NCBI RefSeq assembly: GCF_023169885.1 | Contig: NZ_AP025516.1 | Span: 2,831,501 to 2,895,500 of the forward strand | DNA from: Desulfofustis limnaeus | GTDB lineage: Bacteria > Desulfobacterota > Desulfobulbia > Desulfobulbales > Desulfocapsaceae | Reading direction: 5' to 3' | DNA: 64,000 bases | Part shown: piece after piece, positions 12,533 to 24,063 of the stretch | How positions within the stretch are numbered: position 1 is the first letter of the stretch | How the letters are laid out: each line of letters opens with the position of its first letter | Notes under the pieces: generated by a model | Database searches by the model: none | What the model was told of the DNA's origin: nothing | What the model saw: only the letters and a program-made list of their open reading frames with translations | Made by a program: the position numbers and the translations under genes

Positions 12533-14017
12533 TCAGGCAGGCAGGGCGGCCACGTCAACCACCGGAAAGCTGAGGGTGAAGGTGGTTCCCTGGCCGGGAC
12601 GCGACTGCACGTCGATATAGCCTTGATGCGCCTCGACCACTTCTTTGACCAGGGAGAGGCCGAGCCCGGAACCGGTTATATGCCGGGTCGCCTTCCCCTT
12701 CACCCGATAGAAACGATCAAAGATCGACGTGAGATCCTCCGGCGCGATGCCGATACCGGTATCGGCGAAGACCAGACTGACCAGACCGCCGCTCAGGCTC
12801 GTGGCGATATCCAGCCGCCCCCCTTCCGGTGTGTATTTGATCGCGTTGGAGACGATATTCATGATGGCCGTGCGCATGTGATCGTAATCAACGTTGAACA
12901 GCCACGGCTCGGCACACGGACTGAACGACACGGTGATCCGTTTCGCCTCCGCCTGGGGGCGCATCACCTCGACAATCTCGCCGATCAACTCATGGCCGTT
13001 GGTCGGTTCGAGATTGAAGACCACCGTACCGCTCTCCAGTTTTGAGAGGTTAAGCAGATTTTCGATGAGGCGCAGCAGATCCCTGGTCCGCACCGTCATC
13101 CGGTCATGCAACTGATGACAGGAAAACGCTGCCTCGTACGGGCAGTCGACCTGCAGGGCATAAATCATCTGTTCGATGGAAGCCAGCGGCGATTTCAGCT
13201 CATGGGCGACCATCGCCACGAAATCGGATTTCATCCGATCGATATCCTTCAGGGTCGATATGTCCTCGCAGGTGGTGACCGAGCCGAGCACCATCCCGGA
13301 AGAGGAAAGCACCGGCGCACAATGGGCCCGCAGGCAGCGGCGGCTCAAGGTGCCGGCGGCGAACTCCCGGCTGACCACCCGACCGTTGGCCATCGCCTCC
13401 TGCACCATCTCCATCGCGGCCCGGTCACTGATCGAGTCGGCCAGGGGCTTGCCCACCACCGGGTCGGTCTGGATCTCGAGGAGCTTGATGGCCGCCGGGT
13501 TATGGTGGACAACGATCGCGGCAGGATCGGTGATCAACACCGCCTCCACCATGCAACCAAACACCGTTTTGAGCAGACTCTTCTCCTTCTGCACCGCCTC
13601 CAGGCTGAGGATCCGCTCCTCGCGCAGCCGTTCCGCCTCCGCTTCCAGGCGCAGCTTGGCCACGGCACGCTCGACGACGATACGGATGTAATCGGGGGTG
13701 AACGGCTTGCCGACAAAGTCGAAGGCACCCTGCTTCATGGCCGTCACCGCCTTGGAGACGGTGGCGAAACCGGTGATGACGATGACCTGAATGGACGGCC
13801 GGTTCGACTTGATCCAGTCGAGCACGGCAAACCCGTCAATGCCGGGCATCATCAGATCGAGAAGGACCACGTCATAGCCGTTGTTTTCGATAATTGCGAT
13901 ACCCCGCTCGCCGCTCTCGGCCTTATCTACCTGATAGTCGCGACCGGCTAGCGAACGCTCGACGCCGTCCCTGATCACCTTCTCATCGTCGATAATCAGA
14001 ATGCGCACAGGCTCCAT
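12533..14017 (-). CDS. Receiver-PAS-histidine kinase hybrid
   Basis: 494 residues. A receiver domain (IIDDEK, phospho-acceptor Asp54 in VLLDLMMP) precedes a PAS domain (about 150-260), a HisKA helix with His272 in AHELKSPL, and a HATPase with N box NIVSNAIKYTP and G box GSGLGLSLVKE. It is cytosolic with no membrane segment. Receiver-first architecture implies input from another kinase, plausibly the one at 21597-23183. It is the last gene of the metF2-to-kinase operon and closely resembles the hybrid at 61599-63071, including overall size and domain order. No output domain is attached, so its phosphorylation partner is unknown. Confidence 0.88.
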   Translation of the reverse strand: MEPVRILIIDDEKVIRDGVERSLAGRDYQVDKAESGERGIAIIENNGYDVVLLDLMMPGIDGFAVLDWIKSNRPSIQVIVITGFATVSKAVTAMKQGAFDFVGKPFTPDYIRIVVERAVAKLRLEAEAERLREERILSLEAVQKEKSLLKTVFGCMVEAVLITDPAAIVVHHNPAAIKLLEIQTDPVVGKPLADSISDRAAMEMVQEAMANGRVVSREFAAGTLSRRCLRAHCAPVLSSSGMVLGSVTTCEDISTLKDIDRMKSDFVAMVAHELKSPLASIEQMIYALQVDCPYEAAFSCHQLHDRMTVRTRDLLRLIENLLNLSKLESGTVVFNLEPTNGHELIGEIVEVMRPQAEAKRITVSFSPCAEPWLFNVDYDHMRTAIMNIVSNAIKYTPEGGRLDIATSLSGGLVSLVFADTGIGIAPEDLTSIFDRFYRVKGKATRHITGSGLGLSLVKEVVEAHQGYIDVQSRPGQGTTFTLSFPVVDVAALPA

Positions 14018-14086: not shown

Positions 14087-14473
14087 CTACCGCAACCAAC
14101 TCTTAACCCGATCGAGCAGTTCAGCGGGCTCCACCGGTTTCGGCATATAATCCTCGGCCTCGCTCTCCAGCATATCGCGATGCGTGTAGGTACTGGTCGC
14201 CACCCGATCGGCGACGGCAGTAAGCAGGATGATCGGGATGTCCCGGGTCTGTTCATCGCCCTTGAACTTGGCACAGGCCTCGTGGCCATTCATCACCGGC
14301 ATCATCACATCGAGGACGATGAGATCCGGCTTTTTCTCGGCCACCGCCTCGACCCCCTCCTTGCCGTCATAGGCGACCCGAACTGCATAGCCGCCCTTGG
14401 TCAGGATCACCTTGACCGCTTCGACGAAATCGGGGTCATCGTCCACCAGCAATATCTCTTTCTTGTCCGCCAT
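14087..14473 (-). CDS. Single-domain response regulator
   Basis: 128 residues from the ATG at 14473, chosen because AAAGGAGG precedes it at ideal spacing; a longer open frame upstream lacks such a site. Receiver with LLVDDDPDF, phospho-acceptor Asp55 in VLDVMMP and Lys in the KPVEPAELL segment. No DNA-binding domain, so it acts by protein contact (CheY-like), perhaps relaying between the PAS kinase at 21597 and the hybrid at 12533. It follows metF by 47 nt. Confidence 0.88.
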   Translation of the reverse strand: MADKKEILLVDDDPDFVEAVKVILTKGGYAVRVAYDGKEGVEAVAEKKPDLIVLDVMMPVMNGHEACAKFKGDEQTRDIPIILLTAVADRVATSTYTHRDMLESEAEDYMPKPVEPAELLDRVKSWLR

Positions 14474-14520
14474 CTGTTTCCTCCTTTGGCTTGTATCCGT
14501 TTCGCTCCACCTGAACACCC

Positions 14521-15450
14521 TTATTGGTCAACCACCGGACGAGGCAACAACCCGGCTCCACCGATGATCTCGTGCAGCTTCTCCTCCCATTCGATGGCCA
14601 TCACGTGCACCCCGGCAATCCCTTCCATGTCCCGCAGCTGCTGGATCTGCTCGATGCACATCTCGATGCCCTTGGCCGCCTGCTTTTCCTTCGGCTCATC
14701 GGCCAGCCGCTTGATCACCGGTTCCGGGATGTCGATGCCGGCCACCATCTTGTTCATGAACTTTGCCATGCCCACCGATTTGAGCGGCGTGACGCCGGCC
14801 AGGATCTTGACCCGTTCATGCAGCCCTTTCTTTTTCGCCTGCTCCAGGTAGAGCGTAAATTTCTCCATGTTGTAGATACACTGGGTCTGGACGAAATCGG
14901 CGCCGGCATCGACCTTGAGCTGCAGCCGCGGCACCCTGATCTCGAAGGGGTCGGCGAACGGGTTGACGGCACAGCCGATGAAGAATTTCGGGGCGCCCTC
15001 GAGCTTGTCGCCGGAAGGGAAGACCCCGTCATCGCGCATGGTCTTGACCAGATGGATGAGCTGAATCGAGTCGATATCGAAGACATTCTTGGCCTGCGGA
15101 TCATTGCCGAATTTCTGATGGTCTCCCGACAGGCAGAGCAGGTTGCGCACTCCCAGCGCCGAGGCGCCGAGCAGATCCGACTGCAGGGCGATCCGGTTGC
15201 GATCGCGCACCACCATCTGCAGCAACGGTTCGGTGCCACTCTGCTGCACCAGCAGACAGCCGGCCAGCGAACTCATGCGCACCACCGAGGTTTGGTTGTC
15301 CGTGACATTGCAGGCGTCCACGTTGCCTTTGACGTATGCCGCCTTCTTCAGCACTTTCTCGGGGTCCGCTCCGCGTGGTGGACCGCATTCAGCGGTAACG
15401 GCAAAATGACCGGCGGCGAGTACCTTCTCCAGGTTGCTTCCCGATTTCAT
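14521..15450 (-). CDS. metF: Methylenetetrahydrofolate reductase, MetF catalytic subunit
   Basis: 309 residues from the ATG at 15450 (GGGAGGA upstream); the longer open frame runs through metV and is rejected. FAD TIM-barrel MTHFR family: FAVTAECGPPRGADPEKV, the NVDACNVTDNQ segment, LLCLSGDH and FIGCAVNP. It reduces methylene-THF to methyl-THF in the methyl branch of the Wood-Ljungdahl pathway. The start overlaps the metV stop, and the gene order matches the acetogen clusters in which MetFV binds HdrABC-MvhD to take electrons from a bifurcating complex. A second, divergent MetF is encoded at 23188-24063. Confidence 0.88.
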   Translation of the reverse strand: MKSGSNLEKVLAAGHFAVTAECGPPRGADPEKVLKKAAYVKGNVDACNVTDNQTSVVRMSSLAGCLLVQQSGTEPLLQMVVRDRNRIALQSDLLGASALGVRNLLCLSGDHQKFGNDPQAKNVFDIDSIQLIHLVKTMRDDGVFPSGDKLEGAPKFFIGCAVNPFADPFEIRVPRLQLKVDAGADFVQTQCIYNMEKFTLYLEQAKKKGLHERVKILAGVTPLKSVGMAKFMNKMVAGIDIPEPVIKRLADEPKEKQAAKGIEMCIEQIQQLRDMEGIAGVHVMAIEWEEKLHEIIGGAGLLPRPVVDQ

Positions 15451-16115
15451 CAGACCATGTCCTCCCTGATAATCCGCCGCGGACCGCCGTCTCGAGCACT
15501 GCTCCAGCCCTTGTACGGTTTCAGCTTGCCGTAATTTTCCAGTTGGTCGGGCGCCTTGAGCCGGTCGATGATCAATTGCCAGCCGCAGGGCACCTCTTTG
15601 GACACCTCGCAAACCCCGCCGACCGAGCCGCCGCAGGGCCCGTGAAACAGGGATTTGGCGCAGCGGGTGACGGGACAGATGCCGCCGGTCAGGTGCAGCA
15701 CACAATCACCGCAACCCTGGCACCTCTCCGACCACTCGCCCTGCCGCTCGGTCACCCCGAGAAAACCGGTATTGATGCCGGGCAATAAAGGGGTCCGGTT
15801 GAATTTCTCAGCCATGAACTGAATCCCGGCACCGCAGGCGATGGACAGCACCGCCTGGTAGTCCTCCACATAGGGACGCATCGGTTCGAGATATTCGGGA
15901 TCGCATTGTCGCTCCAAACAGACCTCCCGGATCTCCAATGGTCGTCCGGCCGCCTCCCGGGCCAGACGCAGGGTCGACGCCAGCACCTGAACCTCCTTTT
16001 CGCCGCCGACCCGGCACACGGTGACACAGCCGAAACAGCCGGCAACGACTATTTTGTCGTACAACTCGACCATTTCCAGGATCTCTTCGATTGGTTTTGG
16101 GGTACCGGTTATCAT
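15450..16115 (-). CDS. metV: MetV, methylenetetrahydrofolate reductase C-terminal-type zinc/Fe-S subunit
   Basis: 221 residues from the ATG at 16115, which has AGGAGGAA upstream; the longer frame runs inside mvhD. The N-terminal half includes KIVVAGCFGCVTVCRVGG, and the C-terminal half has the dense cysteine pattern of MetV (CQGCGDC, GGICPVTRCAK, HGPCGGSVGGVCEV). MetV is the partner that links MetF to Hdr-type electron carriers and shows up wherever MetF lacks its own NADH site. It overlaps mvhD by 4 nt and metF by 1 nt. Confidence 0.88.
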   Translation of the reverse strand: MITGTPKPIEEILEMVELYDKIVVAGCFGCVTVCRVGGEKEVQVLASTLRLAREAAGRPLEIREVCLERQCDPEYLEPMRPYVEDYQAVLSIACGAGIQFMAEKFNRTPLLPGINTGFLGVTERQGEWSERCQGCGDCVLHLTGGICPVTRCAKSLFHGPCGGSVGGVCEVSKEVPCGWQLIIDRLKAPDQLENYGKLKPYKGWSSARDGGPRRIIREDMV

Positions 16116-16570
16116 GTCGCAGCTTCCTCCTGGGTAATCGTGCGGCCCTGCATGCCCCGAACCAGATTGATCGGACTCGGGCCAAGTGCTTGTACCTGAT
16201 CGACGAACTCCCCGGCAAACCGGGCAAAGGTCGCCCCTTCTCCGGCGCTGAGGTTGTACATACGGATCCGTTCCGCCCCCAGGCCGATCCTGCCGAGGAT
16301 CTCCGCTACCCGGCCGACCCGGGCCTTGGCGCGGATATTGCCGTTGACGAAGTGGCAATCACCCTCGAGGCAGCCGATCACCATCACCCCATCGGCTCCG
16401 TTCTCGAAGGCCCTGAGCAGCAGAGCCTCCTCAACCCTGCCGGTGCACGGCAGCATGACGATGCTGACCGACACCGGGTAGACACGACGCTCCGAACCTG
16501 CCAGGTCGGCGGCGGTGTAGGCTCAGTGACGGCAGGCGAAGATGATGACGTCCGGGGTAAAATCGCTCAT
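16112..16570 (-). CDS. mvhD: MvhD/VhuD-type delta subunit, probable selenoprotein with in-frame UGA
   Basis: 152 residues if the TGA at 16525-16523 is read as selenocysteine (residue 16). Translation from the ATG at 16570 gives MSDFTPDVIIFACRH-U-AYTAADLAG and then continues into a typical MvhD (LPCTGRV, IGCLEGDCHF). Family members have FxCNWCSYxGADLAG here, so U replaces the second Cys of the CxxC and the motif becomes CxxU. The ATG overlaps the hdrA stop (ATGA) with GGGAG upstream, so the full frame is the coupled one. MvhD passes electrons between HdrA and its partner oxidoreductase. Sec-containing VhuD is known in methanogens. An ordinary caller would start it at 16474 and lose the N-terminus. 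Confidence 0.85.
16492..16509 (-). promoter_or_regulatory. Candidate bacterial SECIS hairpin of mvhD
   Basis: Starting 13 nt after the UGA on the mRNA, CCGACCUGGCAGGUUCGG can fold as CCGA-CC / loop UGGCA / GG-(bulged U)-UCGG. The distance and the bulged U in the upper stem match bacterial SECIS elements such as that of fdhF, which present the loop to SelB. The fold was done by eye. Confidence 0.6.
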
Positions 16571-19500
16571 ACAGCGCTCCCTTGCTCGATGGTGGGCCGA
16601 TCGGCCCGGTAGGCACTCAGTTTCGCTTCGATGTTGTCATCCCGGAACCGGCCGAGGCTGATGGTCTTGGCCGGGCATTCGGCGACGCAGATGCCGCACC
16701 CCTGGCACAACGCCGGATTGATGTAGGCGGTATGCTCCTCGGTAATTACCGGTACCCCGTATGGACAGGCCCGGACACAGGTGAGACAGACGGCGCAGTG
16801 GGCCGGGTTGACCACGGAAAAGACCCCGGACAGGGTCAGTTTCTCCTTGGCCAGAATCGTCGCCGCCCGGGCTACCGCCGCCTGGGCTTGGGTGATGGTC
16901 TCGCTGACGTTCTTCGGCCCATGGGCGGTTCCGGCCAGGAACACCCCCTCACAGGCCAGGTCCACCGGACGCAGCTTGGCATGGGCCTCGATAAAGAAGT
17001 TGTGTTCGTTGCGCGGGATGCGCAGCATGGTCGCCAACTCTTCGGTGTCGTTGGGCACCAGTCCGGTGGAAAGGACCAGCAGGTCCGGGTGGAAGCGCAC
17101 CGTCCGGCGAATCGAAGGATCGGTCAGAGAGACACCCACGCCGGCCTCGGTAAAATCGATGCGAGGTGATTCCTGCTGCGGATCAAAGCGGATGAAATTG
17201 ACTCCGGTCAGCCGTGCCTGACGATACGCCAGCTCAAATAGACCGTAGCAGCGCATGTCGCGGTACAGGACGTCGATACGAACATCGGCATTGAGCTCCT
17301 TGAGTCGCAGGCTGTTCTTGACCGCCTGGTTGCAGCAGTTGCGGGAACAGTAATCGAGGTGCTCGGGACAGCGCGACCCGGCGCATTGGAGCATGACGAT
17401 TCCCGACCAGGAATGGGCGCGCTGCGGCTCCCGGGCGAGCAGGCTCTCGAAATCGCTTTGGGTCATCACCTCCGGCCGTTCACCGAGCCCGTAGAGATTC
17501 GGGCGGTACTCCCGGGCTCCGGTGGCCACCAGGGTGGCGCCATGACGGATGGTCCGGGTGCCGCCGGAGGCAGTCATGATCTCGCTGACGAATGAGCCGA
17601 CAAAACCGTTCTGCTCCACCAGGGCGGCCTTGGTGAAGACCTTGATCCGCTCGTCGGCGAGCACCTGGGCGCGCAACGATTCGAGAAACGGGGCAAACTC
17701 CCGACCGTCCAAACTCCGTTGCAACTGGCGCACCTGGCCGCCCAGTTCATCCTGCTGCTCCACCAGATAGACGGCAAACCCCTGCCGCGCCGCCTCGACG
17801 GCTGCCGTCATGCCGGCAACGCCGCCGCCGATCACCAACAGACCGGGGTCCACGGCGAACTCCAGTTCACTCAATGGCTCGGCTTGGGCCACATTGGCCA
17901 CCGCCATCCGCATCAAGCGTTTGGCCTTTTCGGTCGCCTTGTCCGGTTCCAGCGGGTGCACCCAGCTGCATTGATCACGGATATTGGCCATGTCGAAGAA
18001 ATATTTGTTGATGCCGGCCTGCCGCAGGGTGGACATGAACAGCGGTTCATGGGTCCGCGGCGAACAAGCCGAGACCACCACCCGGTTCAGGTTGTGCTCG
18101 ACGATCAGCTCCCGGATGCGCTCCACCGAATCCTGCGAGCAGGTATACAGGGGGTGATCGGCATAGACCACGTGCGGCAGGGTCCGGGCATAATCGGTCA
18201 CCGCCGCCACGTCCACCACCGAAGCGATATTGGAGCCGCAATGACAGACGAAGACACCGATGCGCAACTCCTCGCCCGACTGAACCGGTTTCTCCGGCAC
18301 CAGCTCTTGTCTCACCAACAGACTGTTACGGGCCGAGGCAATGCCGGCAGCGGCCGCCTGGGCGGCCCCCGACGCCTCGGCCACCGTTTCCGGGATATCC
18401 TTGGGACCATTAAACGCACCGCTGACGAACACCCCGGGCCGGGACGAGGCGAGCGGCGCAAACCCGTCGGTGCGGGCGAACCCGAAACCGTCCAGCTCGA
18501 TGCCGAGACGCTCGGCCAGCTCCCGGTTCTCACGGGACACCTGGACACCCACCGACAACACCACCAGATCGAAGGTCTCGCTGACCAGGGAGCCGCCCTC
18601 GTCGACGTAGCGCAGCTCGAGATCGCCGCTCACCGGGTCCTCGAAGACCCGGCTGACCATAGCCCGAACCATCCGCACCTGATGCTCGCGGGCCCGGTCG
18701 AAGTACCGGTCGAAATTCTTGCCGAAGGAGCGCTGATCGATATAAAAGATGGTCGGTTCGATGGCCTTGTCATGCTCCCGGGCGATAAAGGCCTCCTTGG
18801 CGGCGTACATACAACAGACCGACGAGCAGTAATCTCGGTTGCAGCTGTGGTCGCGCGATCCGACGCACTGAATCCAGGCGATGGTGCGGGGGTGGCGGCC
18901 GTCGCCGGGCCGGGAAACGACGCCCGAGGTGGGTCCGGAGGCGGAGAGCAGCCGCTCGAACTCGATGCTGGTGACCACATTCTTGTAGACGCCGTAGCCG
19001 AACTCCCCGCGCCATCGGGCGTCAAAGACCTCAATGCCGGGTGAGAAAATCACCGAACCGATGTCGACGCTTCGCTCCGTCGCTGTCTGGGAATAATCGA
19101 TGGCTCCCACCCCACAGACGCTCTGGCAGGTCCCACAACCACCGGTGTTGAGGCGAACACAGCTGTGCGGATCGATCACCGGGACCCGCGGCACCGCCTG
19201 GGGGTAGAAGATGTTGATCGGTTTGCGTAGATTGAGTCCCTCGTTGAACCGGTTGTGCAACGGGCGCACCTGCTTGTCGGTGAGGCTCTCGATCGCGAGA
19301 AAATCCACCGGGCAGACGGAAACGCAGGCACCGCAGACCTGGCAGATATCACGCCCCGCCTCGATGCCCTCCCGCACCATGGTCAGCGCGCCGATGTCCA
19401 TGACCTTGCGGCACATGACGACACACAGTCCGCAGCGGATGCAATCGCCTTTGATCCGCCCGCCGCGCTGTTTGATGATCTCCTGCGAGCGCGCATACAG

Positions 19501-20223
19501 GGCGGCGCCGAGGCTCTTGTCCAGATCCGGGGCCCGTTCGACGATCACCGCCTGGAACTGGTCGGGACAAGCGGCATAGCAGGCGCCGCAGCCGATACAC
19601 CGCTCCTGGTCGATGACTGCCACCGCTTTCTTCTGCCATTGCACGGCACCGTGCAGACAAGCCCGGTAACAGGCGCCGCAACGCGAGCACTGGTCAACGT
19701 CCACCCGAAACGTCCAGGCCGCCGGAGATAGCGACGCGCCCTCGGCGACACCGGCCAACACCACCTTGTCGGCGGCTTTGGGCCGTTTTTTCTTTTCTCC
19801 ACTCGCCGGGGACGGGGCAAACCATGAAATCCTGGTGACCGGGCAGACCAGTTCACACTGGCCGCACCCGGTGCATTTAGCGGCATCCACATAGCGCGGG
19901 TGTGACCGTACCCGGGCGGTAAATCTGCCGGCTGCACCTTGTAGATCGAGCACTTCGCTGTGAGTCAGCAGCTCGATATTGCGGTGACGCCCGACTTCCA
20001 CCAGCTTGGGTGAGACAATGCACATGGAACAGTCGTTGGTCGGAAAGGTCTTGTCCAGTTGGGCCATGCGTCCGCCGATGGCGGGTGCCCGCTCTACCAG
20101 GTAGACCCGGAAACCGGACTCGGCCAGGTCAAGGGCCGACTGCATGCCGCCGATCCCGCCGCCCACCACCAGGACCGCACCGGTAACAGCGCCCGTGGTG
20201 TCGGTGCCTATCAGATCCTTCAT
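16567..20223 (-). CDS. hdrA: HdrA, tandem double-module heterodisulfide reductase flavoprotein
   Basis: 1218 residues from the ATG at 20223 (GCAGGAGGAAAC upstream), about twice ordinary HdrA. Module 1 has a dinucleotide fold GGGIGG at 21-26, the DCSMCIVSPKLVEVGRH segment and five CxxCxxCxxxC motifs (CTGCGQCELVC, CSRCGACYRAC, CIGCGACYAAC, CIRCGLCVVMC, CQVCGACVSVC). Module 2 begins with the HdrA N-terminal domain (VFVCHCGSNIASVVDV), a second FAD fold (LLVIGGGVAGMTAA) and a C-terminal pair of ferredoxin motifs (CAVCLTCVRAC, CQGCGICVAEC). HdrA is the flavin-bifurcating centre that joins HdrB/HdrC to MvhD and low-potential ferredoxin. It is coupled by 4-nt overlaps to hdrB and mvhD. Confidence 0.9.
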   Translation of the reverse strand: MKDLIGTDTTGAVTGAVLVVGGGIGGMQSALDLAESGFRVYLVERAPAIGGRMAQLDKTFPTNDCSMCIVSPKLVEVGRHRNIELLTHSEVLDLQGAAGRFTARVRSHPRYVDAAKCTGCGQCELVCPVTRISWFAPSPASGEKKKRPKAADKVVLAGVAEGASLSPAAWTFRVDVDQCSRCGACYRACLHGAVQWQKKAVAVIDQERCIGCGACYAACPDQFQAVIVERAPDLDKSLGAALYARSQEIIKQRGGRIKGDCIRCGLCVVMCRKVMDIGALTMVREGIEAGRDICQVCGACVSVCPVDFLAIESLTDKQVRPLHNRFNEGLNLRKPINIFYPQAVPRVPVIDPHSCVRLNTGGCGTCQSVCGVGAIDYSQTATERSVDIGSVIFSPGIEVFDARWRGEFGYGVYKNVVTSIEFERLLSASGPTSGVVSRPGDGRHPRTIAWIQCVGSRDHSCNRDYCSSVCCMYAAKEAFIAREHDKAIEPTIFYIDQRSFGKNFDRYFDRAREHQVRMVRAMVSRVFEDPVSGDLELRYVDEGGSLVSETFDLVVLSVGVQVSRENRELAERLGIELDGFGFARTDGFAPLASSRPGVFVSGAFNGPKDIPETVAEASGAAQAAAAGIASARNSLLVRQELVPEKPVQSGEELRIGVFVCHCGSNIASVVDVAAVTDYARTLPHVVYADHPLYTCSQDSVERIRELIVEHNLNRVVVSACSPRTHEPLFMSTLRQAGINKYFFDMANIRDQCSWVHPLEPDKATEKAKRLMRMAVANVAQAEPLSELEFAVDPGLLVIGGGVAGMTAAVEAARQGFAVYLVEQQDELGGQVRQLQRSLDGREFAPFLESLRAQVLADERIKVFTKAALVEQNGFVGSFVSEIMTASGGTRTIRHGATLVATGAREYRPNLYGLGERPEVMTQSDFESLLAREPQRAHSWSGIVMLQCAGSRCPEHLDYCSRNCCNQAVKNSLRLKELNADVRIDVLYRDMRCYGLFELAYRQARLTGVNFIRFDPQQESPRIDFTEAGVGVSLTDPSIRRTVRFHPDLLVLSTGLVPNDTEELATMLRIPRNEHNFFIEAHAKLRPVDLACEGVFLAGTAHGPKNVSETITQAQAAVARAATILAKEKLTLSGVFSVVNPAHCAVCLTCVRACPYGVPVITEEHTAYINPALCQGCGICVAECPAKTISLGRFRDDNIEAKLSAYRADRPTIEQGSAV

Positions 20224-21077
20224 ACCGTTTCCTCCTGCCTGACTGCCGCCTGATCGACGACCGAGCTGAGCGCCTGGGCCGGGACCAGGTGGAGCCGTCG
20301 TTGTCTGGCCGGATAACTGCCACTCAGCGCTGCAACAATCAACTCGGTGGCGTAAAAGACCGGCAGCGGTTCCGCACCGCTCGTTTGCCGGCTCTCCACG
20401 TTGGCCTGGCACATCGGGCAATCGGTTACCAGCGCCCGGGCACCGGCACGCCTGGCCGCCGCCACAATATCGCCCACCAACGCCTCGGCGATATCGGGGC
20501 GGGCCATGGTCAGGCTGCCGGAGCAGCATTCGGTCCGGTGCGACCAGTCGACCGGCCGGGCCCCAAGCGTCTCGACAATGGTTTCCAGATTGCGTGGCTG
20601 TTCATAGTCCTGCGCGCCGGTAACCTTCGGATGGCGCAGGGACAGGCAGCCGTAATAACAGGCCACCGGCAGGCCATCGAGCCGGATGCGGAGCTGCTCG
20701 CCGATGAGCCGACAGCTCCGCTCGGCAGCAAGCAACGAGCTGATATGGACGATGGTGAAAGACGGCGCATAGCTCTCAGCATCCCAGTACGCCGGATCGG
20801 CGCGCACGGCCCGGTCAGTGGCTTTCAACCGTTGAAAACAGGCGGCGCAGGGAACCAGCAGGTCGTGCCCCAATTCGGCGGCCAGCAGCAAATTGCGTAA
20901 GGGGAGCCGGACGGCGACCTCATGATCGGTCATATGGGCCGACGAGGCACCGCAACAATTCCAATCGGGCAATTCAACCAACTCGATGGCGAGCCGTGCG
21001 CAGACCTGGCGCACTGATCGGTCATAATCGAGGGCCGTACCGTTAAGTGAGCAACCAGGGTAATAGGAATAGTTCAT
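20220..21077 (-). CDS. hdrB: HdrB, CCG-domain disulfide-active subunit
   Basis: 285 residues, normal HdrB length. Two CCG domains: YYPGCSLN...NCCGASSAH...CAACFQRL, and CYYGCLS...ECCSGSLT...CPMCQANVE. These cysteines hold the paired noncubane clusters at the disulfide-reducing site of methanogen HdrB; in MetFV clusters this site may simply pass electrons on. Overlaps hdrC by 4 nt upstream and hdrA by 4 nt downstream, so synthesis of the three subunits is coupled. A paralogue is at 59883-60737. Confidence 0.9.
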   Translation of the reverse strand: MNYSYYPGCSLNGTALDYDRSVRQVCARLAIELVELPDWNCCGASSAHMTDHEVAVRLPLRNLLLAAELGHDLLVPCAACFQRLKATDRAVRADPAYWDAESYAPSFTIVHISSLLAAERSCRLIGEQLRIRLDGLPVACYYGCLSLRHPKVTGAQDYEQPRNLETIVETLGARPVDWSHRTECCSGSLTMARPDIAEALVGDIVAAARRAGARALVTDCPMCQANVESRQTSGAEPLPVFYATELIVAALSGSYPARQRRLHLVPAQALSSVVDQAAVRQEETV

Positions 21078-21637
21078 CGTTCGTACTCCTTACCACGTCC
21101 GGCGAAGATCCGTTTGATTTCGGCCTTCTCCTTGACCGTGTGCGGGCGCAGTCCGAGCCGCCCCCGGGAGAACATCTGCACCCCGAGTTTCAGATCGGAA
21201 AACAGATCGCCGCTGCGCATTTTATAGCCGGCAATCAGCCCCACCTCATAGGCGCGTCCCCACCGTTTGATCGAGGCCAGAAAGGATTGGTGAAACATCG
21301 GCACCCGCGGCTCCGCCGGGCGAACTCCCTTGCGCAGCGCCAGTTCGCGCAGTACGTCCATCAAAGCGGCGATGTCGATGTCGTTGGGGCACCGGGTGGC
21401 GCAGGTTTCACACGACGCACACAGCCAGATGGTCCGACAGCCGAGCAGTTCGTCCTCCAGGCCATAAGCCGCCAGACGCACCACTTCCATGGTGGTCAGA
21501 TCGAAGAAGGTGGTGATCGGACACCCGGCGGCACACCGGCCACACTGGAAGCACGCCTGGACATCGATACCCCGGGCCTGCAGCTTGCCGAGAAACTTAC
21601 GATTGGTCCGTTCCAACACACACGTGTTGTCCTTCAT
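21074..21637 (-). CDS. hdrC: HdrC, [4Fe-4S] electron-transfer subunit
   Basis: 187 residues from the ATG at 21637, with GGAGG upstream; the longer frame lies in the kinase gene. Two ferredoxin motifs are at C29-C32-C35-C39 (CFQCGRCAAGC) and C73-C76-C79-C83 (CASCETCATRC), the HdrC pattern. It carries electrons between HdrA and HdrB. Its 5' end lies inside the 3' end of the PAS kinase gene (41-nt overlap), an unusual tight link between sensor and enzyme. Confidence 0.9.
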   Translation of the reverse strand: MKDNTCVLERTNRKFLGKLQARGIDVQACFQCGRCAAGCPITTFFDLTTMEVVRLAAYGLEDELLGCRTIWLCASCETCATRCPNDIDIAALMDVLRELALRKGVRPAEPRVPMFHQSFLASIKRWGRAYEVGLIAGYKMRSGDLFSDLKLGVQMFSRGRLGLRPHTVKEKAEIKRIFAGRGKEYER

Positions 21638-23183
21638 CCTCGCCTCCTTTGACAGCTTCCGCCAGCGCCGGGAAACGGAGCGTGAAAACAGCCCCCTCGC
21701 CCGGCGTGGAGTGCACCCGGATGGTTCCCTGGTGCTCTTTGACGATGGCATACGAGACCGACAGTCCCAGGCCGGTGCCCTCTCCGGTCGTCTTGGTGGT
21801 AAAAAACGGCTCGAAAATCTTCTCCTGCAGCTCTTCGGGAACCCCGGGGCCGCTATCGGCAATCAACACCTCGACCACATCCTTTCCCGCCCTGGTCCGG
21901 CTGACGATGCGCAGCGTACCCTGGCCCTGCATGGCCTGGGCACCGTTCACCAGCAGATTCATCAACACCTGGTGCAGGCGAATATGGTTGCCGGCGATTG
22001 ACGGTATCTGTGCATCCAGCCGACATTCCACAGTGATGTTATGAAACAGCGGCTGCTGCTGGAGGATACCCAGCGTCTTACGCACCACCTCGTTGATGTT
22101 GATCGGCACCATCTCGAAACTGGACTGATGGGAAAATTCCAGCAGATCGGCAACGATCACCTTGCAGCGTTCGGCTTCGTGAATGATGGTATCGAGGTCC
22201 ACAACCGCGGGATGCGTCTCACCCAGTTCTTCTTTGACCAGGTTGGCATAGAGCATGATCCCGGACATCGGGTTGTTGATCTCGTGCGCCACACCGGCCG
22301 CGAGGCGACCAAGTCCGGCCATCTTTTCCGACTGCATCAGCATCTTGTGGGTCTGCTCCAGATCCTCCTCGATCTGGAGCATGGCCCGCAGGTCAGTAAA
22401 AATGCCGAAGGTGGCTATTTCGTTGTCTTTATCGTAGATAATGCCGCCGGAGAACCGCACCGGGATGTCATGGCCGTCCCGATGCCGTACCGTCAGTTCA
22501 TGGTGCAGCAGTTTGCCTCGCCCGCCGAACTCCTCACTGCGCATCCGCTTCAGAATCTCATGGGCCAGGGCCTCATGATACAGCTGCGCCACGTGCAGAT
22601 CGCCGAGGTCCTCCTCGCGATACCCGAGCAGGGAAAGGGCCGCATCGTTGAAGAGGATGATCCGGCCCTGCATGTCGGCGGCGATGATGGCATCGACCGA
22701 CGAGTTGATGAGGTTATTGAAAAAGGCGTTGCGCCGACGTAGCTGCCCCTCCAAACGTTTCCGGGCAGTGACGTCGATCAGGTAAAGGAGGTAGTAGTTG
22801 GGCGATGATGGCGGATAAACGAGTACCGCATCGAGGATCTTGTTCTCCCCGGGGCCGGTCTCTATCCTGATTTCCTGCCTGATCCGCGATTCACCGATCT
22901 CCGCCAGGTTATCGAAGAATTGCCCGATTTGGTAGAAAAACCACTGATTCTCACGGCCGAGCAACACCTCCAGCTCGGTCTCGGTCACCCCCCGATAATC
23001 GATGCCGAGCAGGGTTTGGGCGGCCGGATTGACGTAGCAGACATGGTGCGAGAGATCGACCACCACCACCCCGTTGGGCGTCTCCTCCAGTATTTGGTAG
23101 AGATAGAGGTGCGATCCCAGCTCGTTGGTGACCTCCGGCAAACTTTTGCGCAGAGGAGAGCGCTCGTCGTCGCTTTTCAGCAC
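21597..23183 (-). CDS. Cytosolic double-PAS sensor histidine kinase
   Basis: 528 residues from a GTG at 23183, four bases after the metF2 stop, with AAAGG upstream; the longer frame would run back into metF2. Two PAS domains (about 30-140 and 155-265) precede a HisKA domain with His300 in [18 protein letters not shown] and a C-terminal HATPase (TTGEGTGLGLSVSYAIV). No membrane segment, so it senses something inside the cell, such as redox state, a flavin-linked signal or a metabolite. The likely partners are the receiver proteins at the far end of the same operon. The kinase at 63087-64000 is its closest relative here. Confidence 0.87.
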   Translation of the reverse strand: MLKSDDERSPLRKSLPEVTNELGSHLYLYQILEETPNGVVVVDLSHHVCYVNPAAQTLLGIDYRGVTETELEVLLGRENQWFFYQIGQFFDNLAEIGESRIRQEIRIETGPGENKILDAVLVYPPSSPNYYLLYLIDVTARKRLEGQLRRRNAFFNNLINSSVDAIIAADMQGRIILFNDAALSLLGYREEDLGDLHVAQLYHEALAHEILKRMRSEEFGGRGKLLHHELTVRHRDGHDIPVRFSGGIIYDKDNEIATFGIFTDLRAMLQIEEDLEQTHKMLMQSEKMAGLGRLAAGVAHEINNPMSGIMLYANLVKEELGETHPAVVDLDTIIHEAERCKVIVADLLEFSHQSSFEMVPININEVVRKTLGILQQQPLFHNITVECRLDAQIPSIAGNHIRLHQVLMNLLVNGAQAMQGQGTLRIVSRTRAGKDVVEVLIADSGPGVPEELQEKIFEPFFTTKTTGEGTGLGLSVSYAIVKEHQGTIRVHSTPGEGAVFTLRFPALAEAVKGGEDEGQHVCVGTDQS

Positions 23184-23187
23184 CGTC

Positions 23188-24063
23188 TTACCTTTCGATA
23201 AGATTGAGAAATTCCGGCAATCGATCCTTCCAGCCAAGACTGACCAGAACCACCGCATCACTCAGCGGCTGCAATTCGCGCAGGAAATCGGCTGCCACCT
23301 GCAAACCGGCCATTTTCTTGTCCGGGGCCTGCATCATCTTTTTTTGGAACTCCTGCGGAATCGACGGCACACCGGGAAGGTTGTTGAGGTAACGGATCAT
23401 CGTCACCGATTTCAGATAGAGCAGCGACGTGCGCACCTTGATCCCGGTCTGTTCCGCCGCCGGAAGAAACTGTTCAATGATCGTGAGGTCGTAGGTCGGC
23501 CCAAGGGTCACCGCCTGAACCCCGAGATCCCGCAGCTTGGAAAACGACGCGGCCATTTCTCGATTACGACTGGCTTCGTCGGAAAGATCCAGGCACACAT
23601 CGATGAAAAAGTCGGTCGCCCCGTCCAGGTCCTCACCGGAGAGGTCCTTGCCGTTGTTGAGGCGGGAGGCGCAGGTCAACATGGTCTCCAGGTTGAGATC
23701 GCCGCTGGTTCTGGCCAATGGTTGATCCCCTTCGCGCGGGTCGTGTCCCTCCTTGATGACGATACCGGTGATCCCCAAAGCGGCGGCACACAGCAGGTCG
23801 GACTGGAAGGATAGTCGATTGCGGTCCCGGCCGTTGATCACCATCACCGGTACGAAACCTTTTTCTTGCAATGCCAGACAGGGAGCCAGAGGGGCCATGC
23901 GCATGATGGCGTGTTCATTATCGGTGACCCGGATGCCCTGCACCCGGCCCCTGAGGTTTAAGGCGGTGGCAAGGAAGGGCTGCAGATTACTCCCCTTGGG
24001 TGGGTCCAGTTCGATGATCAGGGGGGCGGGGCGGGAGACCTGGCTGGTGGCGGCAGCTTCCAT
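23188..24063 (-). CDS. Second MetF-like methylenetetrahydrofolate reductase
   Basis: 291 residues with GGAGG before the ATG. MTHFR-type TIM barrel: IELDPPKGSNLQPF at the N-terminus, VQGIRVTDNEHAIMRM, and FQSDLLCAAALGITGIVI, parallel to the same segments of the MetF at 14521-15450 but clearly divergent. It is the first gene of the operon. It may be a second MTHFR with a different partner, or a corrinoid/folate methyltransferase-associated MetF homologue. Having two MetF-like genes at either end of one hdr operon is unusual. Confidence 0.8.
   Translation of the reverse strand: MEAAATSQVSRPAPLIIELDPPKGSNLQPFLATALNLRGRVQGIRVTDNEHAIMRMAPLAPCLALQEKGFVPVMVINGRDRNRLSFQSDLLCAAALGITGIVIKEGHDPREGDQPLARTSGDLNLETMLTCASRLNNGKDLSGEDLDGATDFFIDVCLDLSDEASRNREMAASFSKLRDLGVQAVTLGPTYDLTIIEQFLPAAEQTGIKVRTSLLYLKSVTMIRYLNNLPGVPSIPQEFQKKMMQAPDKKMAGLQVAADFLRELQPLSDAVVLVSLGWKDRLPEFLNLIER

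Follow-up and report, generated by a model that had tools for sequence, protein, structure and literature searches.

Selenocysteine (Sec) forms of FrhD/MvhD were placed among the bacterial selenoproteins in 2006, in a paper that lists 19 sequences in one table and names Deltaproteobacteria and Clostridia, including Moorella, as their sources (PMC1794560). Four Sec mvhD genes (mvhD1, 2, 3 and 5) were reported from Desulfobacterium autotrophicum HRM2 in 2009 (PMC2702500), and the table of a 2026 review gives the family, PF02662, as CxxU (PMC13188914). The VhuD protein of Methanococcales has Sec at the same CxxU position and serves as a connector to Hdr (PMC6019823). Passages in two papers place the [2Fe-2S] cluster of MvhD close to HdrA's bifurcating FAD and describe MvhD as the link between an electron donor module and Hdr (PMC12350162, PMC6019823). 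In Moorella thermoacetica HdrABC-MvhD-MetVF is the methylene-THF reductase complex, a finding of 2014 that is cited in PMC5736913 and PMC5039349.

The mvhD gene of Desulfofustis that we describe here, with its predicted Sec codon, is a real and well-supported case, of a kind already known in bacteria. It lies in a 64,000-nucleotide stretch of Desulfofustis limnaeus DNA, the whole of which we call the window. An initial sequence-only reading of the window implied that a methanogen-type selenoprotein in a bacterium was new; this was an overstatement in view of the bacterial Sec FrhD/MvhD proteins printed in 2006 and 2009 (PMC1794560, PMC2702500). Our literature search found no paper combining Desulfofustis with selenocysteine. 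The protein resembles those bacterial examples in being a PF02662 member with CxxU, from the Deltaproteobacteria, encoded beside hdrA. Theirs, however, belong to hdrA-frhD-frhG-frhA or HdrA/HdrL-MvhD operons, and the passages of those papers do not state a linkage of the Sec form to MetVF. The gene content at the Desulfofustis locus is the same as that of the Moorella complex, but whereas the Moorella selenoproteins include HdrA as well as FrhD (PMC1794560), the hdrA frame here is open under the standard code, so its product has no Sec. There is also a difference from archaea, where the SECIS is found in untranslated regions (PMC2933860), while the candidate element here is in the coding region just past the UGA.

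The mvhD gene and its in-frame TGA codon

The features of the locus are as follows.

14521-15453, minus strand: metF (PF02219; start inferred)
15450-16115, minus strand: metV (PF12225, MTHFR C-terminal)
16112-16570, minus strand: mvhD with an in-frame TGA, predicted to be read as Sec16; 152 amino acids plus a TGA stop
16491-16508, minus strand: bacterial SECIS-like hairpin, 7 bp, loop GGC at 16501-16499, bulged U at 16495
16522-16524, minus strand: TGA codon 16, predicted selenocysteine (CRHU), conserved in 44/44 of the ortholog group
16567-20229, minus strand: hdrA (long HdrA; start codon approximate), its stop overlapping the mvhD start
20220-21077, minus strand: hdrB (CCG domain)
21074-21640, minus strand: hdrC (4Fe-4S; start inferred)

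The genes run contiguously in the order hdrCBA-mvhD-metV-metF, as expected of the MetFV-HdrABC cluster recognised in the sequence-only reading, and by analogy a HdrABC-MvhD-MetVF complex of the Moorella kind may be formed in this organism. The proposed mvhD start codon, ATG at 16570-16568, does share an ATGA overlap with the hdrA stop, and the mvhD TGA stop (16114-16112) overlaps the start of metV; these two overlaps suggest translational coupling of hdrA, mvhD and metV. Of the 43 named loci in the ortholog group, 41 have mvhD between hdrA and metV-metF, and both exceptions, L103 (without hdrA) and L117 (without metV and metF), are near a contig end. The operon is flanked by two PAS histidine kinases, one of which has a receiver domain, and by a response regulator (21597-23168, 12533-14017 and 14087-14518, minus strand). 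A 291-amino-acid open reading frame at 23188-24063 (minus strand) reads like a distant MetF relative and has no Pfam match at 1e-6.

Translation of mvhD gives MSDFTPDVIIFACRH-UGA-AYTAADLAG and then MvhD up to the stop, as had been read from the letters, and the read-through protein matches PF02662 (FlpD / MvhD) over residues 8-130 (E 3.2e-43; 147.1 bits against a cut-off of 22.3). The in-frame TGA is at 16524-16522, one position away from the 16523-16525 first assigned to it, and it takes the place of the second Cys codon in the family's CxxC. Six solved homologues were matched, and in the four alignments that were inspected CNWC stands opposite CRHU. The window protein has four Cys and one Sec; C13, U16, C42, C67 and C72 are present in it and in the 43 grouped loci, these five Cys-type positions being our own list, taken from the alignment. 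We consider it very probable, from the comparisons that follow, that mvhD is a bacterial selenoprotein gene with UGA decoded as selenocysteine at codon 16, and Sec would then be the residue inserted there.

An MvhD-like match was found in 92 of the 93 genomes of the family. All of the best 45 matches listed, which come from 44 of the 93 genomes, have an in-frame TGA; one of these also has a TAA and one a second TGA. A partial match in G032 (79% identity) holds an in-frame TGA too, while listed matches at 63-69% identity in four genomes (G044, G003, G057 and G045) are without it, each of those genomes also having a copy with TGA. A second search, of named genomes and followed by alignment, kept 80 of 128 relatives; the window and 43 loci at 62% identity or more made up the ortholog group and 37 loci at 55% or less were left out. 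Neither peptide pattern used in that search was biased toward TGA. Codon 16 is TGA in 44/44 of this group, whose members are relatives and not 44 independent events, and this count is not independent of the family count because some of the named loci are from the same genomes. The closest named relative by MvhD locus is Desulfofustis glycolicus DSM 9705 (81%).

These data bear on two other explanations of the TGA. A gene caller meets a broken frame here, as it would if the codon were a sequencing error or mvhD a pseudogene, but the same TGA recurs throughout the 44-member group, in many assemblies, and the frame is conserved on both sides of it; the chance of an error or a pseudogene is practically nil and we regard that explanation as already refuted. 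Alternatively, translation could truly stop at the UGA; MvhD would then begin with the GTG at 16474, and a short regulatory peptide would be made upstream of it. The open reading frame list without read-through does offer only a 120-amino-acid product from that GTG, which is the truncation that had been foreseen for gene callers. Nevertheless, codons 11-15, upstream of the UGA, encode a conserved peptide, differ mostly by synonymous substitutions (F 44/44, A 41/44, C 44/44, R 43/44, H 41/44) and carry the first Cys of CxxC, so the homologues do not all begin at the downstream GTG, and a start there would lose both the CxxC and the ADLAG region, which are present in the solved homologues. A product confined to the downstream frame is thus very improbable, and read-through of UGA as Sec is the interpretation that we pursue below.

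A SECIS-like hairpin within the coding sequence

A bacterial SECIS is a conserved hairpin that occurs soon after the UGA and has a small loop starting with G. The mvhD message can form such a structure, with a 5' arm at 16508-16502, the GGC loop and a 3' arm at 16498-16491 in which U 16495 is bulged, and the loop is 21-23 nucleotides past the UGA. The hairpin with a bulged U at a SECIS-like distance that the sequence-only reading had pointed out is therefore present in the letters, and 44/44 members can form, in one of two registers, a 7-bp stem capped by a GGC loop. When the peptide was encoded at random with synonymous codons, only 4.8% of 200,000 such sequences allowed the same 7-bp stem. 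The nucleotides at positions 14/29 are G-G in 32 members (register A) and C-G in seven or G-C in five (register B); C-C, the combination that breaks both registers, is not seen.

In the 44-member group codons 22-25 are almost fixed (GAC 44/44, CTG 44/44, GCA 44/44, GGT 43/44) and codon 26 is TCG in 39/44, while four to six synonyms are in use at each of codons 17, 20, 28 and 29. The strongest synonymous constraint of mvhD is in the eight-codon window from codon 19, and constraint is higher than in the rest of the gene for codons 20-27 (Mann-Whitney P 0.005) and for codons 17-28 (P 0.035). The 28 Cys homologues of the same family use GAC in 18/28, GCA in 12/28 and GGT in 4/28, a comparison that is only partial because most of them read ADMAGS and not ADLAGS.

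Folding energy alone does not set the hairpin above shuffled sequences (z 0.72 for 50 nucleotides, -0.16 for 36 nucleotides); 8.9% of random synonymous encodings reach a fold as good as that of the window core or better, and the minimum-energy fold of 39 nucleotides does not choose the hairpin in every member, the window's own included. What lifts it above chance is the TGA in 44/44 together with the nearly locked synonymous sites. The combination of a small G-initial loop soon after the UGA, near-frozen synonymous sites and a 7-bp GGC-loop hairpin available to every member is, as read from the alignment, the signature of a bacterial SECIS. In the proposed mechanism SelB, with GTP and Sec-tRNA, would bind the stem-loop that begins 14 nucleotides past the UGA, and the bound SelB would insert selenocysteine as residue 16, in the second Cys position of CxxC.

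Two Cys homologues with CRYC, L155 and L158, keep most of the SECIS letters and lose the first loop G (GAC CTC GCA GGT TCG), as if they had been derived by a Sec-to-Cys change.

Selenocysteine machinery in the genome

A search for the sel genes, which had been proposed as a check, found most of the set: selB (364.7 bits against a cut-off of 242.25), tRNA-Sec, the product of selC (72.5 bits against 47, anticodon tca), and two selD genes (L018 and L019; G000 C1 281600 and 929270) are present, and selA was not found. Rfam at the gathering threshold gave nothing within the 64-kb window, the tRNA-Sec being located elsewhere in the genome. Each selD has one in-frame TGA, and past that of one of them a similar hairpin is predicted (CGACCC-GGUC-GGGCUCG).

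For selA there was no TIGR00474 match in the genome, and PF03841 fell short of its cut-off (19.4 bits against 22.8) in a frame whose sequence looks like that of a cystathionine/methionine gamma-lyase-type PLP enzyme; SepSecS was not found in the genome either. The same-genus genome G026 has selA next to genes whose translations we read as TPR, LOG, PilT and ComEC. Homologues of these neighbours are present in the D. limnaeus genome and the expected selA slot reads N in the copy that was searched, so the failure to detect the gene is not evidence of its absence. The idea that a missing selA denotes a novel Sec pathway was dropped, since the syntenic slot reads N. A selA gene scores over the TIGR00474 cut-off in 70 of the 93 family genomes, the one same-genus genome among them, and no TIGR00474 match was obtained in 21, of which D. 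limnaeus is one and several of the other 20 are near-complete; among these 21 the N-filled slot has been established for D. limnaeus only. We infer from the synteny with G026, the N slot and the family count that D. limnaeus probably has selA.

The state of selA is relevant to a further possibility, namely that decoding of the UGA yields cysteine or some other sense residue, for example via a mischarged tRNA-Sec. That selA was not found in this genome copy, and that the family residue is Cys, would suit such decoding; against it, selA is widespread in the family and occurs in the same genus, the homologues of its neighbours border the N stretch here, and the two selD genes with in-frame TGA codons suggest a working selenium supply. 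We judge decoding as something other than Sec to be highly unlikely, and take Sec to be, very probably, the residue at codon 16.

Paralogous clusters and the predicted position of selenium

The genome contains two further HdrA-MvhD-MetV-MetF clusters, L159 and L160, and the three clusters fall within about 85 kb. The MvhD of L159 (4400-4900, minus strand; G000 C1 about 2,815 kb) reads CHYC at site 16, and its TGA lies at the site-67 equivalent (VAGULPGQCHF); the L160 MvhD (G000 C1 about 2,899 kb) is all Cys. We scanned 20 family loci, chosen for a TGA in their family-search matches, plus L159, and obtained 24 motif matches, 15 of them Sec67 and nine Sec16. The letters after the TGA are CAUUUCCUGG[A/C]AGGAAA in 15/15 Sec67 matches and GGACCUGGCAGGUUC in 9/9 Sec16 matches, and the apex CCU-GG[A/C]-AGG is common to both hairpins. 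The minimum-energy fold did not pick the Sec67 hairpin in L159 or in L192. A further subgroup (CDYUGY) is represented by L198, L199 and L200, paired Sec16 MvhD copies that lie close by on one strand.

Among the 80 named loci, a sample that favours relatives of the Sec16 query, ten have Sec at both sites and all ten carry archaeal labels; the window MvhD differs from these VhuD-like proteins in having C67. In the solved VhuD 9sfi_K the two sites are given as X; its close relative L125 has Sec at both, and we read this X as Sec. Sec67 alone is found in L114 (Anaerolineae label) and L116 (Ardenticatenia label), which also adjoin metV and metF. In the literature listings and passages covered we found no mention of a bacterial MvhD with Sec67 alone, and the trio of HdrA-MvhD-MetVF clusters (Sec16, Sec67 and all-Cys) in one genome was likewise not found in the passages.

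It is possible, and we suggest it tentatively from these sequence comparisons, that the lineage retains paralogous HdrA-MvhD-MetVF isoenzymes distinguished by the place of selenium among the thiols of the same MvhD iron-sulfur site (residue 16, the residue-67 equivalent or none), with the potential being tuned by moving the selenium. We found no mention of the Cys ligands of the MvhD cluster in the literature passages. Should the [2Fe-2S] cluster occupy four of the five conserved positions, at most one would be left free and either Sec16 or Sec67, or both, would be a ligand, a deduction that assumes four Cys-type ligands, all from MvhD. One or both Sec isoforms would then have a natural selenolate-ligated [2Fe-2S] cluster.

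Our findings make mvhD a clean example of a SECIS backed by synonymous-site constraint. Standard gene callers truncate this gene, so reading through the UGA corrects the annotation of a core energy-metabolism operon of the family. The presence of Sec16, Sec67 and Cys clusters in one genome may offer a natural comparison for the role of selenium in an electron-bifurcating complex.
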